A DNA stretch of 64,000 bases from Pseudomonas vanderleydeniana (GTDB lineage Bacteria; Pseudomonadota; Gammaproteobacteria; Pseudomonadales; Pseudomonadaceae): NCBI RefSeq assembly GCF_014268755.2, contig NZ_CP077093.1:1910001-1974000 (forward strand). Direction: 5' to 3'. Below are positions 28,356 to 34,128 of the stretch, piece by piece. The notes beneath the pieces were generated by a model. The model was given only the letters and a program-made list of their open reading frames with translations. It ran no database searches and was not told where the DNA came from. The translations under genes and the position numbers were made by a program. Each line of letters opens with the position of its first letter. Within the stretch, counting starts at the first letter, position 1.

Positions 28356-29702
28356 GTGTTTTCCCAATTCGCCCTGCACGAACGCCTGCTCAAAGCCGTG
28401 GCCGAGCTTAACTTTGTCGAGCCCACCCCGGTGCAGGCAGCGGCCATTCCGCTCGCGCTCGAAGGGCGTGACCTGCGGGTGACGGCGCAGACCGGCAGTG
28501 GCAAGACCGCCGCGTTCGTCCTGCCGATCCTGCACCGCCTGATCGGCCCGGCGAAGATCCGCGTCAGCATCAAGACCCTGATCCTGCTGCCGACCCGCGA
28601 GCTGGCCCAACAGACGCTGAAGGAAGTCGAGCGCTTCTCGCAGTTCACCTTCATCAAGTCCGGCCTGATCACCGGCGGTGAGGATTTCAAGGTGCAGGCC
28701 GCGATGCTGCGCAAGGTGCCGGACATCCTGATCGGCACCCCGGGCCGCCTGATCGAGCACCTGAACGCCGGCAACCTGGACCTCAAGGAAGTTGAAGTGC
28801 TGGTGCTCGACGAAGCCGACCGCATGCTCGACATGGGCTTTGCCGACGACGTGCAGCGCCTGGTCGACGAGTGCGCCAAGCGCCAGCAGACCCTGCTGTT
28901 CTCCGCCACGACCGGCGGTTCCGGCCTGCGCGAGATGATCGCCAAGGTGCTGAACAACCCCGAGCACCTGCAGCTCAACGCCGTCAGCCAACTGGCCGAG
29001 AACACCCGCCAGCAGATCATCACGGCCGACCACGACCAGCACAAGGAACAGATCATCAACTGGCTGCTGGCCAACGAGACCTACGAGAAGGCGATCATCT
29101 TCACCAACACCCGGGTCATGGCCGACCGGATCTACGGCCGCCTGGTCGCCCAGCACTACAAGGCGTTCGTGCTGCACGGCGAGAAGGACCAGAAGGACCG
29201 CAAGCTGGCCATCGACCGTCTCAAGCAGGGCGCGGTGAAGATCCTCGTCGCCACCGACGTCGCCGCTCGCGGCCTGGATGTGGATGGCCTGGACCTGGTG
29301 ATCAACTTCGACATGCCGCGTAGCGGCGACGAGTACGTACACCGAGTCGGCCGTACCGGTCGCGCCGGCAACGACGGCCTGGCGATCTCGCTGATCTGCC
29401 ATGGCGACTGGAACCTGATGTCGAGCATCGAGCGTTACCTCAAGCAGAGCTTCGAGCGCCGCACCATCAAGGAGGTCAAGGGCACCTACAGCGGGCCGAA
29501 GAAGGTCAAGGCGTCGGGCAAGGCTGCCGGTACCAAGAAGAAAAAGACCGATGCCAAGGGCGACAAGAAGAAGTCGGCGGCCAAGACGCCAACCAAGCGC
29601 AAGACCGCCAACCGGCCGAAGAGCGATGCGCCGAAGCTGGTCAGCCAGGATGGCATGGCGCCGCTCAAGCGGCGCAAGCCACAGGCCTCGGCCGGCGAGT
29701 AA
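28356..29702 (+). CDS. DEAD-box RNA helicase (RhlE/RhlB-like)
   Basis: 448 residues. Motifs in order: Q motif region PTPVQAAAIP, motif I AQTGSGKT (44-51), PTRELA, TPGR, DEAD (152-155), SAT (183-185), and HRVGRTGRAG near 340. The tail from about 375 on is rich in lysine, alanine and threonine, an RNA-binding extension. GTG 28356 is the start: GAGG is 9 bp upstream and the N-terminus VFSQFALHERLLKAV fits the family; the frame to 28317 is an artefact. Role is RNA remodelling, possibly in the cold. Followed by a terminator. Confidence 0.9.
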   Translation: MFSQFALHERLLKAVAELNFVEPTPVQAAAIPLALEGRDLRVTAQTGSGKTAAFVLPILHRLIGPAKIRVSIKTLILLPTRELAQQTLKEVERFSQFTFIKSGLITGGEDFKVQAAMLRKVPDILIGTPGRLIEHLNAGNLDLKEVEVLVLDEADRMLDMGFADDVQRLVDECAKRQQTLLFSATTGGSGLREMIAKVLNNPEHLQLNAVSQLAENTRQQIITADHDQHKEQIINWLLANETYEKAIIFTNTRVMADRIYGRLVAQHYKAFVLHGEKDQKDRKLAIDRLKQGAVKILVATDVAARGLDVDGLDLVINFDMPRSGDEYVHRVGRTGRAGNDGLAISLICHGDWNLMSSIERYLKQSFERRTIKEVKGTYSGPKKVKASGKAAGTKKKKTDAKGDKKKSAAKTPTKRKTANRPKSDAPKLVSQDGMAPLKRRKPQASAGE

Positions 29703-29736
29703 CCGCCAGTCGGCCGGTTGAAACCGATGCACCCAC

Positions 29737-29768
29737 CAATGCCCCGCCTGCCGGGGCATTGGCGTTTC
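29737..29768 (+). terminator. Intrinsic terminator after the helicase
   Basis: CCAATGCCCCG and CGGGGCATTGG form an 11-bp perfect stem with a 5-nt loop, followed by CGTTTCAT, a short U-rich tail. Confidence 0.7.
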
Positions 29769-29911
29769 ATGGGGTTCGCTCAGGCGCTAGTAGCATTTTG
29801 CTAAAAGATCGGCGCGGACAGTGGCGCTGGGGTTATCGCGCTCTGTAGTATTTCCCGCTCACGTCAGCAGGATGATGGAGCCCTGGACGGCTCCACATAG
29901 GGAATATGCTC

Positions 29912-31036
29912 ATGAACTACCTCGAACGCTCCATGTCCGCCTTGCGCTCCATCGGCATTACCTTTCCTGACCAGAATGCCCCGGTGCTGGCGCTGCTGGA
30001 CCAGGTTGCGGTGTATGACAGCACGCGCGTCACCAATATCGCGGCCACCCTGCAACAGTCCACGGTGTTCAACGCCGCGATCCGCGACAAACTGCAGGGC
30101 ATGGACATCAGCACCCGCTACGCCGATATCGCCAGCAGCTTCGACTCGATCCAGAGCGATGCGCGGCAGATGCTTGAGTGGATGGCCGACGGCAAGCTGC
30201 AGTTCTCCGAACGTATCCAACTGGCCTGGTTGAACATGCGCCGTGGCTCGATCCCGGACCGTTTCGAGAAGATCCGCACCACCTACCTCGATGTGGCCAA
30301 GTCGGCCAACGAGCAGATTCGCCTGGAAACGCTGATCCTGGATTCCTACCAGGACTATCGCCTGGCGATGAAGACCGCCGAGGTCGATGCCAGCGAAGTG
30401 CAGAAGATCGCCCAGGGCAGGATGGATGCCCGGCGCCAGGCCCTGGCCGACGCCACTGCCGCTCTGGAAGGCGAGCTGGAAGCCCCGGAGCGTTCCAAGC
30501 GCGAGCTGGCGCGGGACGTGGCCTTGCGTGATTTGCAGGACGAGGACAAGCGTTTCCAGATCATCACCGACATCGCCGACCAGCTCAAGGCCGGCTACAA
30601 CGCCGCGGAGCTGGTATTCGCCCGCCTGAGCCAGTATCACTCGGTCAAGGAGCGGCTGTACCAGCGCGCGGTGAGTTTCTTCGCCACCAACGAGATCGTG
30701 TTCACCGGCCTGGCGGCGGGTTTTACCGCATCCGGCGGGTTGGCCGAGGTGACCAACACCCTCAATGCGATGAACGATGGCATCAACACCAGCCTCGAGG
30801 TCCAGGCCAAGGTCGGTGGCGACCAGCTCAATGCCGCGCTCAAGGCCGGCTATGGCACCACCCTGAAAGTCAGCTCGGTCAGGGCCCTGGCCGATGCCGT
30901 GGTCGACTTCCAGGCCAGCAGCCTGAATCTGATCCAGGAGCTGCGCAAGGAGTCCACCGCCGCCTCCGCCGAGATCGAATCGATCACCGAGGACAGCAAG
31001 CGTCGGTTCACCGCGCTGCTGCAGAAGGGGCTCTGA
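29912..31036 (+). CDS. TelA-like toxic-anion-resistance family protein, divergent
   Basis: 374 residues, almost entirely helical, no signal peptide. Two stretches resemble the TelA/KlaA family pattern: 115-170 (RFEKIRTTYLDVAKSANEQI, then a run of leucine/charge helices) and 210-345 (QIITDIADQLKAGYN, later MNDGINTSLE, ALKAGY, and a final segment ending in SLNLIQELRKES). The usual TelA glutamine/proline signature in the middle is degenerate, so this is a distant member at best. A mild hydrophobic stretch lies at 254-278. ATG 29912 is chosen over 29906 because AGGGA is 8 bp upstream of it. It opens a tight cluster: the next gene starts 1 bp after its stop. The assignment is from pattern memory, not a search. 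Confidence 0.6.
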   Translation: MNYLERSMSALRSIGITFPDQNAPVLALLDQVAVYDSTRVTNIAATLQQSTVFNAAIRDKLQGMDISTRYADIASSFDSIQSDARQMLEWMADGKLQFSERIQLAWLNMRRGSIPDRFEKIRTTYLDVAKSANEQIRLETLILDSYQDYRLAMKTAEVDASEVQKIAQGRMDARRQALADATAALEGELEAPERSKRELARDVALRDLQDEDKRFQIITDIADQLKAGYNAAELVFARLSQYHSVKERLYQRAVSFFATNEIVFTGLAAGFTASGGLAEVTNTLNAMNDGINTSLEVQAKVGGDQLNAALKAGYGTTLKVSSVRALADAVVDFQASSLNLIQELRKESTAASAEIESITEDSKRRFTALLQKGL

Positions 31037-31037
31037 C

Positions 31038-31361
31038 GTGAGCGGCGTCCCTCTCTCCGAGATGATGGGGGCGATGGCCCTTGTCGATGAGTTGCGCTAC
31101 AGCAAGGCCGAGCTGCAGAAGCATCTCGACCTGCCGCTGCAGCGCCAGCAGATTGCCGAGCGGATTCGCGAGTACTACCGTGCCCGCAACATGGAGGTCG
31201 ATGACGCCGTGGTCGACGAAGGCGTGCGCAGTTTCTTCGTCAACCGCCTGACCTACCAGCCGCCTTCGATCGGGCCGTTGTCCCGGCGGCTGGCACAGGC
31301 CTATATCAACCTGGGGCGCCGCCTGCGGCTGGTGCCCACGGCCCACCAGGAGGACCGATGA
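31038..31361 (+). CDS. DUF6384-like small protein
   Basis: 107 residues, helical and charged. The N-terminus GVPLSEMMGAMALVDELRYSK and the segment LPLQRQQIAERIREYYRARN, then VDDAVVDEGVRSFFVNRLTY, match what I recall of the DUF6384 family. Relatives are often longer with a C-terminal membrane helix; this one ends soon after PLSRRLAQAYINLG, so only the N-terminal domain is present. A GTG start at 31038 sits 1 bp after the stop of the TelA-like gene, and its own stop overlaps the next start by 4 bp (ATGA), so the three genes are translationally coupled. Function unknown. Confidence 0.65.
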   Translation: MSGVPLSEMMGAMALVDELRYSKAELQKHLDLPLQRQQIAERIREYYRARNMEVDDAVVDEGVRSFFVNRLTYQPPSIGPLSRRLAQAYINLGRRLRLVPTAHQEDR

Positions 31362-32647
31362 ACGCGAGCAGCATACTGGCATCGCTGAACGAGAACTCCC
31401 GGCGATACGAATACGAACTGCGCAAGTTCCAGTTGGAGCTGTCCAATGCCCACGATCAGGAGCTGCGCCTGCAGCAGGAGATCGGCAGGATCTTCCCGCA
31501 ACTGGCCGGGCACCAGTTGGCCGGTGGTGCGACGATCTCTGGCGAGGTGCAGCTTGTGCTCGACCAGCGTACCCAGGACGAGGCCGGGTTGCGTCAGCAA
31601 CTGGTGCAGGTCGAGCAGGGTATCGCCGCCCAGGCCGAGGCGCTGGCCCGCATGGTCGAGGAGCTCGAAGAGGCGGCCACCTCGCTCGAGCGCAAGCTGG
31701 AACAGGACCCACGTTACCTGCAGCAGCTTGCCTTGCATGAGCAGGCGGTGGCGCAGTGCAGCGATGCGGCGCGTTCCTACAAGGAGCTGCGTGCCGAGTG
31801 CAGCCGCAAGCTGCCGGCGTTTCAGACCGATCCGTTCTATCTCTATCTCAAGGCCCGTGGTTTCGGGACTGACGGCTATTCCAGCTGGGCCTTGTGGCGC
31901 ACGCTTGACCGCTGGCTGGCCAAACTGTGCAATTTCAGCGAGAACCATGCCTCGGAGCGTACGCTGCTGGCCATGCAGGAGGCCAATGAGGCGGCCAGTT
32001 GGCAGCGCGATACCAACCGCGGCATACAGGAGGCCGAACTGGCACGCCTGCAGCAGGAGATACTGGCGACGGTCGACCTGACGACGTTGCAGAAGCGTCG
32101 CCAGCAGGCGCAGAAGGAACTCGATGCCGGCAAGGCCGGGGCCAATGTCCTGCACGGGCGCCTCGACCAGTTCGTCAATCGCCGGGATCCGTACTTCGCC
32201 AAGGCCTCGGAGCTGCTGGCCAGGCAATTGGCCGAGATGAGCAACGTGACCTTGGAACGCCTGGCCGGGCAGACCACCGGCACCGCGGATGATCGGTTGG
32301 TGCTGCACCTGCGTGACCTGCGTACCGAACTGGACGAGTTGCGCGTGCGCATCCCGCTGCTGGAGATGCGTTGTCGGGATGCCACCAGCGACTACGAGCG
32401 GGCCAAGCAGCTCGAGCGCGACATGCAGGCGGATGAGCATGTCAGCAATCAGTACAGCTACTCCGAGGAGATCGATCTGCCAAAGCTGATGTCCGGTTTC
32501 ATGCGGGGCGGTATCTCCCTGGACCAGGTGCAGCAGCAGGTGGAGCGGCATCGCAAGGCCGCCAAGGTGGTGTCCGGCGAGACGACCACCCGCAGTTTCA
32601 GCTTCAGTTTCACGTCGAGCAGTTCCTCTGGCTCCAAGCGCAAGTAG
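31358..32647 (+). CDS. Coiled-coil protein of the TelA-like cluster
   Basis: 429 residues dominated by long coiled coils: RRYEYELRKFQLELSNAHD near the start, an Arg/Gln/Glu-rich helix around 70-150, and another around 230-370. A globular interruption (about 160-195) carries DPFYLYLKARGFGTDGYSSW and WRTLDRWLAKLCNF. The end is a low-complexity serine tail (SFSFTSSSSSGSKRK). No transmembrane segment or signal. It could be a scaffold or membrane-remodelling partner of the PspA/TelA kind, but I do not recognise the family. Its start overlaps the DUF6384-like stop (ATGA). Confidence 0.65.
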   Translation: MNASSILASLNENSRRYEYELRKFQLELSNAHDQELRLQQEIGRIFPQLAGHQLAGGATISGEVQLVLDQRTQDEAGLRQQLVQVEQGIAAQAEALARMVEELEEAATSLERKLEQDPRYLQQLALHEQAVAQCSDAARSYKELRAECSRKLPAFQTDPFYLYLKARGFGTDGYSSWALWRTLDRWLAKLCNFSENHASERTLLAMQEANEAASWQRDTNRGIQEAELARLQQEILATVDLTTLQKRRQQAQKELDAGKAGANVLHGRLDQFVNRRDPYFAKASELLARQLAEMSNVTLERLAGQTTGTADDRLVLHLRDLRTELDELRVRIPLLEMRCRDATSDYERAKQLERDMQADEHVSNQYSYSEEIDLPKLMSGFMRGGISLDQVQQQVERHRKAAKVVSGETTTRSFSFSFTSSSSSGSKRK

Positions 32648-32814
32648 CGGCTGGCTGGCATGTCCGGGTGCAGACGGGGGGCAGCTTGGGCTGCCCCCTG
32701 TCGTTTCCGCCCGACGGTCGTCGCGCTGGGGGAATCCGGCTGAACGGCGCTGGTTGTTGCCTGTCACTAGTGGGAAGGGAGACTTTTCCTATCACAGTGG
32801 GAGGTTGTATCAGG

Positions 32815-33207
32815 ATGACGACTTATAACTGGGAACTGATCGAACGTCTGCTCCACGAGGTGCAGAACAGCGCCGGCCACAACTTCGCCCCGCGGGCCTA
32901 TGCCGAGCAGCATGCCACGGCCCAGGCAGCGGCGGGCGAGCCACCGGGCAATCTCGATGCCCTCAAGGCCCTGGCCGCCGATTACGAGCGCCTGCTGCTC
33001 AAGAACGGCTTCATTGCGCCGCGCCCGGAAGAGGAAGGCGGCAATGGCGAGAACTTCGTGCTGACGCCGCGCGGTTCCAGCCTGCTGAGCCTGATCGACA
33101 GCAGTATTCCCGGCAATGACCACCCTCGGTTGGTGCTGGATGACCAGCAGGATGCGCTGGATCCGCAGGTGTTCGATGAGGTGGCGTCCAAGGCGCAGAT
33201 CGCCTGA
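32815..33207 (+). CDS. Small DUF2513-like (winged-helix-like) protein
   Basis: 130 residues. NWELIERLLHEVQN opens the chain, then a helix LKALAADYERLLLKNGFI, and a VLTPRGSSLLSLID segment; this order recalls the DUF2513 winged-helix family, where the LT-x-x-G motif is in the wing. A conserved-looking acidic C-terminal part follows (DDQQDALDPQVFDEVASKAQIA). ATG 32815 is preceded by GGGAGG about 10 bp upstream. It follows the coiled-coil gene after 167 bp on the same strand, so it may be a regulator of the cluster or an independent gene. Confidence 0.6.
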   Translation: MTTYNWELIERLLHEVQNSAGHNFAPRAYAEQHATAQAAAGEPPGNLDALKALAADYERLLLKNGFIAPRPEEEGGNGENFVLTPRGSSLLSLIDSSIPGNDHPRLVLDDQQDALDPQVFDEVASKAQIA

Positions 33208-33267
33208 GGCTTCAGCGGATTTGTCGTCTGGGGGGCTCATTCGCGAATGGGCCGTCCAGCCATGCAC

Positions 33268-34128
33268 CTAACCGTCCTTCAGGCATTTCAACTCGCTGAA
33301 ATCGCGCCGCAGATCGGTAATCCGCTTCAGCAGCAACGCTCGCTGGGTCGGGCTGCTTTCGGCCACCAGATCGACTATCAGGCTGCGGGTTGCCCGTTCG
33401 GTATGGGCGTAGGCCTGTCGATACTCGGCGGTCCAAAAACTGTCCTGGTGTTGCAGCAACTGCGCGATCCGCTGCTCGAAGTCGGCATTCTGGCGCTCGG
33501 CGACCGCCTCGCTCAGTTGCGTCTGCCAATAGGCCCGGTTGGCGATCCACAGGCGGTTCTGTTCACCCAGGGTCGTCGACCAGGCGATCACCCGCTGCTG
33601 CTGGCTCAGGCTCAGCGGGCCGATCCAGGCCTTCAGGCGCTTGCTCATCCGTTCGCCGCGATCACGGATCTGCTCGTCCAGCGGCGGCGCGACATACTCG
33701 GCCTGGCGTTCGCGCTGTTCCTTGGCGAAGGTTTCGTTCATTTCCGCCACCTGCCGGTCGTCCAGGCCCTTGAGCAGTTCGATGGCTGACGGGGTGATTT
33801 CCCGGGCGACCTGGGCAATCGCGGCCCGGGCTTCGGCGGTACGCGCCTGCAAGTGGGCGTCATCGACCTGGCCGTTCTCGACCATGGCCTGCACGCGGTC
33901 CAGCCACTGCAGGTAGCCGGGCAATTGCGTGGTGCAGTGCCATTGCAGGTGTTCCTTGAGGCGCTCGTTGAGCCAGCCTTTCTGCTCGCGATGCATGTCG
34001 ATGTAGTCGCCGAGGGTCCAGGGGATGATCACATCGAGGTTGCGATAGGCCAGGCCGATCCGGGTACAGGCGGCGATCGCCAGGCTCAGGGCCAGGCAGC
34101 AGAGCAGTAGGGCGCGTCGGCACGGCAT
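33268..34128 (-). CDS. DUF6279-family lipoprotein
   Basis: 286 residues with a lipoprotein signal peptide: hydrophobic stretch then lipobox LAIAAC with the acylated cysteine at 21. The mature part is helical, with repeated Trp/Arg-rich segments (YRNLDVIIPWTLGDYIDMHREQ, WLNERLKEHLQWH) typical of the DUF6279 family. Localisation to the periplasmic side of a membrane is likely; no function is known to me. It is convergent with the small winged-helix-like gene and divergent from the CvfB-like gene. Confidence 0.8.
   Translation of the reverse strand: MPCRRALLLCCLALSLAIAACTRIGLAYRNLDVIIPWTLGDYIDMHREQKGWLNERLKEHLQWHCTTQLPGYLQWLDRVQAMVENGQVDDAHLQARTAEARAAIAQVAREITPSAIELLKGLDDRQVAEMNETFAKEQRERQAEYVAPPLDEQIRDRGERMSKRLKAWIGPLSLSQQQRVIAWSTTLGEQNRLWIANRAYWQTQLSEAVAERQNADFEQRIAQLLQHQDSFWTAEYRQAYAHTERATRSLIVDLVAESSPTQRALLLKRITDLRRDFSELKCLKDG

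Follow-up and report, generated by a model that had tools for sequence, protein, structure and literature searches.

What kind of system do three tightly coupled genes in a Pseudomonas chromosome encode, and is the copy found there a complete one? We examined this question for a 64,000-nucleotide stretch of Pseudomonas vanderleydeniana DNA (the window; positions 1,910,001–1,974,000 of a complete 7.03-Mb chromosome), in which g1, a DUF6384 gene and g3 form a plus-strand trio. An earlier note on this DNA had described the trio and a small gene that follows it as a TelA-like, DUF6384-like, coiled-coil and DUF2513-like cluster; the layout and the DUF6384 assignment stood, whereas the TelA and DUF2513 assignments did not. 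We find that the trio is a horizontally spreading module and that the window holds a reduced copy of it, from which the membrane helix and C-terminal domain (C-domain) of DUF6384 and the tail of g3 are gone. We tentatively favour the view that the full form is an envelope-associated scaffold in which DUF6384 provides the membrane bridge.

A three-gene module at different insertion sites

The genes are packed as the earlier note described, and the open reading frame (ORF) coordinates bear this out: a single base pair separates the end of g1 (31036) from the GTG start of the DUF6384 gene (31038), and the DUF6384 stop codon overlaps the g3 start codon in an ATGA at 31358–31361. Judged by eye, the spacing of an AGGGA before g1 suits the ATG at 29912 better than that at 29906, and scanning 29680–33300 for promoter and terminator patterns found neither. 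Pfam and NCBIfam scans likewise confirmed the claim that the trio includes no hydrolase, nuclease or transporter family. Neither g1 nor g3 has a convincing family in Pfam, NCBIfam or PADLOC (for g3, the best Pfam expectation (E) value was 0.026), and a DNA-level search gave no match in E. coli.

Presence of the module across genomes is patchy. g1 was found in 29 of 398 genomes of a genus sample and 14 of 274 of a class sample (own genome counted in both); in a smaller genus sample it occurred in 14 of 149 genomes and g3 in 15, the extra genome (G037) carrying a g3 fragment without g1, and among 299 phylum genomes the Pfam DUF6384 model matched 2, own genome again counted. Our comparison covered 41 g1 loci: the window, two sets of 13 and 15 further genus loci, 11 from the class and 1 from the phylum. 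Two partial class matches (G186, G301) and a locus with a g3 fragment and no g1 (L059) were left out. All three families were present in 41 of 41 loci and on 11 of 11 plasmids, so the three genes do travel together. Among the 25 g1 loci tabulated, 20 keep the order g1–DUF6384–g3 with short gaps or overlaps; the remaining five (L054–L058, all Pseudomonas) carry additional or reordered copies of DUF6384 and g3 around a single g1. Eight Pseudomonas loci (L054, L055, L057, L058, L157, L158, L160 and L162) combine one g1 with two or three DUF6384 copies and extra or broken g3 copies, which looks as if parts were being exchanged.

The module also extends beyond chromosomes. g1 was detected on 11 of 72,556 plasmid records, all at least 323 kb in size, and the same 11 carry the DUF6384 C-domain and g3; one of them is the megaplasmid of Methylorubrum extorquens AM1 (L182). 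Among 50,697 phage records, g1 was detected only in phiR1-37 (two records). At L051, another Pseudomonas locus, the trio has a 2-isopropylmalate-synthase-like gene on one side and, on the other, the genes for 2-keto-3-deoxy-6-phosphogluconate (KDPG) aldolase and glucose-6-phosphate dehydrogenase; the gene clusters flanking it there also flank the trio in several further loci. The trio thus sits at different insertion sites and is a horizontally spreading module.

Plasmid neighbourhoods supplied several side observations. Two related Pseudomonas megaplasmids (L168, 5468–6538; L184, 1576–2643) have genes for StiP and peptidyl-tRNA hydrolase upstream of the trio; StiP, which Pfam describes as a tellurite-like stress resistance protein, was assigned by Pfam scan in L168 and by record annotation in L184. 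A dCTP deaminase gene lies downstream of the trio in L167 and L168, and a P. aeruginosa plasmid has the trio about 5 kb from the type IV CRISPR gene csf2 (L166, 17785–18831). Four contigs from a viral collection (L169–L172) carry g1 (55–56% identity) near the contig end and may be prophage with chromosomal flank. A search limited to a set of open-access papers yielded none for DUF6384, PF19911 or 'merozoite surface protein 3b' in combination with Pseudomonas.

DUF6384 and g3 are truncated in the window

The window DUF6384 protein is a real match to PF19911 (E 1.8e-17; 63.9 bits against a Pfam gathering cut-off of 25), confined to profile positions 6–95 of 308, whereas its full-length relatives match PF19911 over the whole model or at both ends. 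In these relatives, of about 300–480 amino acids, a single predicted membrane helix separates an N-terminal domain (N-domain) from a C-domain predicted to be periplasmic, and the latter ends in tryptophan (Trp) in 33 of 41 loci. Each relative has one hydrophobic segment, mostly near residue 100, and the N-terminal flank is the more positive in 27 of the 29 family members with a segment (the other two are ties), so the C-domain should be periplasmic. A structure model of the full-length DUF6384 protein of L046, the nearest locus to the window among those compared, has a predicted local distance difference test (pLDDT) score of 85.2 and is made up of helices, a stretch resembling a coiled coil and a beta domain at the C terminus; Foldseek returned nothing for it at E ≤ 0.001 and pointed to no coherent family.

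Against this design, the window DUF6384 keeps the N-domain and lacks the rest, with no hydrophobic segment and no C-domain match. The gene is 921 bp shorter than in L046, a multiple of three, with its start and the ATGA coupling kept, and a blastn alignment of the two loci ends at 31307 and restarts at 31358. Short homologues of 106 and 107 amino acids exist at 92% and 84% identity, alongside an 83-amino-acid variant; the 92%-identical form is annotated in P. fuscovaginae UPB0736 and another short form lies on a different contig, so the shortness is not a sequencing slip. The DUF6384-like call in the earlier note was therefore right, although it overlooked that the short length reflects truncation.

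The same holds at the end of g3. Most g3 loci encode a serine- and glycine-rich (Ser/Gly-rich) tail that closes with GGFxTxxF/L or GGGFxTGGGF, whereas the window g3 ends in SSSSSGSKRK without such a tail, and the blastn alignment to L046 stops at 32575 and restarts at 32705. The long coiled-coil protein with a Ser-rich tail of the earlier note does have a Ser-rich end, but one that is itself truncated, a point that note missed. The window copy is thus a reduced module.

Joint loss of the DUF6384 C-domain and the g3 tail

Across the compared loci, the two losses go together, in a way that is suggestive but not conclusive. A tailed g3 accompanies a Trp-ended DUF6384 in 32 of 33 loci and is found in 0 of the 8 loci without the Trp end (relatedness uncorrected); the sole exception, L157, has a g3 fragment beside a Trp-ended DUF6384. 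Six of those eight have no detectable C-domain, and two (L056, L163) have a C-domain that ends in phenylalanine. On a g1 tree, each trait requires five changes, and of four supported independent pairs, three changed in the same direction, none in the opposite direction and one showed no difference. The plasmids are a mixed check: in all 11 copies the C-domain has its Trp either at the very end or no more than about ten residues from it, and five of their g3 tails fit the pattern by eye (L166, L179, L180, L183, L186).

Phage-borne copies

The giant Yersinia phage phiR1-37 carries the complete module in the same order as g190–g191–g192 (L165, 8959–12790). It resembles the window in gene order, in that g190 is homologous to g1 (41.6% identity over 99%) and in that g191 is a DUF6384 protein, and it differs in being phage-borne and complete: g191 has both the N- and C-domains and the Trp end, and g192 ends in a GGGGGFSSSDSF tail. 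All three genes are annotated as hypothetical, the record placing its 'phage structural protein' notes for this stretch on other genes, and they are not named in the available portion of the main text of the phiR1-37 RNA sequencing paper (PMC4848604) or in the available part of PMC13030884. In PHROGs, the tail of g192 gives one weak family of unknown function, and g1 and the L046 DUF6384 give no match.

Dolichospermum phage Dfl-JY45 has the converse arrangement (L174, 5978–8709): a Trp-ended C-domain protein (107 bits) followed by a tailed g3 (108 bits). The C-domain protein has no DUF6384 N-domain match, and no g1 was found in the 209 kb at E ≤ 1 in a search that did match phiR1-37. Dfl-JY45 is thus a mirror image of the window, in which the C-domain and the tail persist without g1 and the N-domain.

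Relatives and predicted fold of g1

g1 is widely represented: a single-sequence search gave 320 homologues at E ≤ 1e-3 and a profile search 3,627 at E ≤ 0.01, each among 7,999 scored. The window protein is 96% identical to one of P. fuscovaginae UPB0736, and a frequent annotation of the relatives is 'merozoite surface protein 3b'. The g1 structure model has a pLDDT of 73.7 and is uncertain at residues 273–319. Searches of solved structures with the g1 sequence and with g1, DUF6384 and g3 profiles gave weak matches only, which we take as chance or coiled-coil bias; the best paired the DUF6384 profile with a stretch of yeast VTA1 (E 0.0052).

Proposed mechanism and competing explanations

In the scaffold reading that we tentatively favour, full-length DUF6384 is predicted to be a single-pass inner-membrane bridge with its N terminus inside. 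Its cytosolic N-domain would work with g1, a putative soluble helical bundle, and its periplasmic C-domain would belong to a step that requires the Ser/Gly tail of g3. Our guess is that the trio serves as an enzyme-free scaffold, associated with the envelope, for protecting or remodelling the inner membrane; in the window lineage, loss of the helix, the C-domain and the g3 tail would have left a cytosol-only version. The membrane-stress or phage-defence-like scaffold suggested by the earlier note survives in its first half, since a membrane-associated scaffold fits the single hydrophobic segment and more positive N-side of full-length relatives. A more elaborate version, which we regard as rather doubtful, is an undescribed two-compartment envelope machine in which g1 docks on the N-domain from the cytosol, the g3 tail, with its conserved terminal aromatic residue or leucine (Leu), acts with the periplasmic C-domain, the halves can be inherited separately, with the cytosolic one kept in the window lineage and the other in the cyanophage Dfl-JY45, and a giant phage and megaplasmids carry the module to alter the host inner membrane.

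Several observations weigh against the scaffold reading. g3 has no membrane helix by hydropathy and no signal peptide by eye, and so no evident route by which its tail could meet a periplasmic domain; the coupling may be indirect. Fisher's p of 9e-8 for the association of Trp end and g3 tail ignores relatedness, and the sign test on independent pairs, with p 0.25, is too small. Among plasmid copies, three g3 tails differ by a residue (L167, L168, L184) and three g3 proteins end unlike the tail despite a near-Trp-ended C-domain (L181, L182, L185). The body of phiR1-37 g192 is barely matched by the g3 profile, its placement resting on gene order and tail. The ratios of non-synonymous to synonymous substitution rates (dN/dS) between the window and L046, 0.12 for g1 (374 codons), 0.33 for the DUF6384 N-domain (92) and 0.25 for g3 (380), are pairwise and do not isolate the time after truncation.

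Those ratios bear on a further explanation, that the window copy is decaying, its remainder inactive and on the way out, which concerns this copy alone and is compatible with the other readings. Two of the three window proteins are truncated compared with close full-length relatives, and fragments occur in other Pseudomonas loci (L054, L059, L160); on the other hand, all three frames are open with the ATGA coupling kept, the same short DUF6384 occurs in P. fuscovaginae and on another contig, and every pairwise dN/dS is below 0.35. We therefore consider decay somewhat unlikely, and to judge from its sequence the cytosol-only version still looks maintained. Anti-phage defence or superinfection exclusion, with the trio as a membrane device on chromosomes, megaplasmids and a giant phage, would suit the patchy distribution noted above, the differing insertion sites, carriage by phiR1-37 and megaplasmids, the lower conservation of g3 and the repeated DUF6384 and g3 copies in some loci. 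However, window PADLOC matches were weak and lay in helical stretches (methyltransferase models, E 0.0039 and 0.0077), and 39 relatives likewise gave only weak ones (MTase_II in 15, best 0.0022; ZorA1 in 3, best 0.00011). The trio has no nuclease or other known effector domain, and of 10 neighbours scanned from seven loci, a small sample, nine matched Pfam families, which included no defence or mobile-element ones. The phage-defence-like role put forward in the earlier note is accordingly not supported, and we judge it quite unlikely.

Other explanations turn on what g1 is. A TelA/Ter-type stress module, in which g1 would be very remotely related to TelA and the trio would confer resistance to toxic anions or envelope stress, draws on an all-helical protein of similar length, on the StiP gene found upstream of the trio in L168 and L184 and on a viral fold library, in which 4 of the 50 listed matches to the g1 model are named for tellurite or toxic-anion resistance (one of them TelA) and align over 330–365 columns at similar length. 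Their template modelling (TM) scores are 0.32–0.37 and their E values only 0.11–0.23, so these viral models give weak evidence for a shared fold. A g1–TelA profile score of 24.6 exceeds the 18.3 and 17.7 of reversed controls; nonetheless, hhalign probability was only 1.7% against 23 TelA sequences and 0.1% against three, and g3 scored higher at 11.3%, which indicates coiled-coil bias. PF05816 was not matched by the window protein at E ≤ 1 or anywhere in the genome at E ≤ 0.001, it is absent from the 25 listed of the 57 families matched by 39 relatives, and the neighbouring genes differ in the two TelA loci looked at. With no sequence or profile similarity above noise, TelA membership of g1, as claimed in the earlier note, is rejected by sequence, and the stress-module explanation is unlikely. 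For a ClyA/XaxA-type alpha-pore-forming system, in which the g1 bundle would insert into the cell's own or a target membrane, the argument is that ClyA, XaxA and AhlB toxins are the best structural matches of the g1 model, with scores within what helical bundles may reach. ClyA-type toxins insert a hydrophobic segment into the membrane (PMC6162564). g1 gave no sequence match to them, has other partners and seems to lack a strongly hydrophobic segment for insertion (its 19-residue hydropathy peaks at 1.37 in the window and at up to 1.45 at the same site in relatives), and we find a pore-forming system very improbable. A secreted toxin operon is likewise not preferred, given the membrane-anchored partner and modest hydropathy.

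Flanking genes and insertion site

The small gene that follows the trio is not part of it, a point the earlier note missed: each of the 10 trio-less relatives that were fetched also has it, so we treat it as a resident neighbour and reject it as a trio member. Nor is it DUF2513-like, that family being absent among its Pfam matches at E ≤ 1, the only one of which is HTH_45 (E 0.24). The window and four of five close relatives (L046–L049) have a DEAD-box helicase gene upstream of the trio and a small winged-helix-like gene downstream of it, in L049 with further genes in between. Among the 10 trio-less relatives, the interval from the DEAD-box gene to the fourth gene is at most about 260 bp in four and spans 2.8–3.5 kb, with other genes, in five; in the last, the DEAD-box gene lies outside the fetched stretch. 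The site is thus variable.

Cargo at this site in relatives (29703–32814 in the window) includes a conserved gene for 243–245 amino acids in L100, L102, L103, L104 and L108, joined in four of these five by a small NWCWAA-containing protein. L102 also has a gene that, judged by eye, resembles an outer-membrane transporter. A DUF6279 gene adjoins the trio region in the window (33268–34128) and in L070 (4311–5237), a gammaproteobacterium of another family.

Table 1 Coordinates of the trio, its truncation sites and the flanking gene in the window
Feature	Position	Strand	Description
g1	29912–31036	+	ORF, 374 amino acids; predicted all-helical and soluble; most conserved trio member
DUF6384 gene	31038–31361	+	107 amino acids, GTG start; N-domain only
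DUF6384 junction	31308–31357	+	Site of the missing membrane helix and C-domain, both present in relatives; blastn against L046
g3	31358–32647	+	429 amino acids, coiled-coil-like; Ser-rich end; lacks the conserved GGFxTxxF/L-type tail (alignments, tail listing)
g3-end stretch	32576–32704	+	Not alignable to L046 (blastn); site of the missing tail
Fourth gene	32815–33207	+	Resident flanking gene with weak winged-helix resemblance; not a trio member

Implications

Provisionally, the tests run assign the trio to no known kind; should g1 turn out to be related to TelA or ClyA, the trio would count as a variant within that kind. What emerges is a three-gene set with thousands of g1 relatives, common to chromosomes, megaplasmids and a giant phage, for which we found no assigned function. 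Its interest rests on the module and its natural half-modules more than on the window copy: the half-modules indicate which piece should bind which, making the design directly testable.

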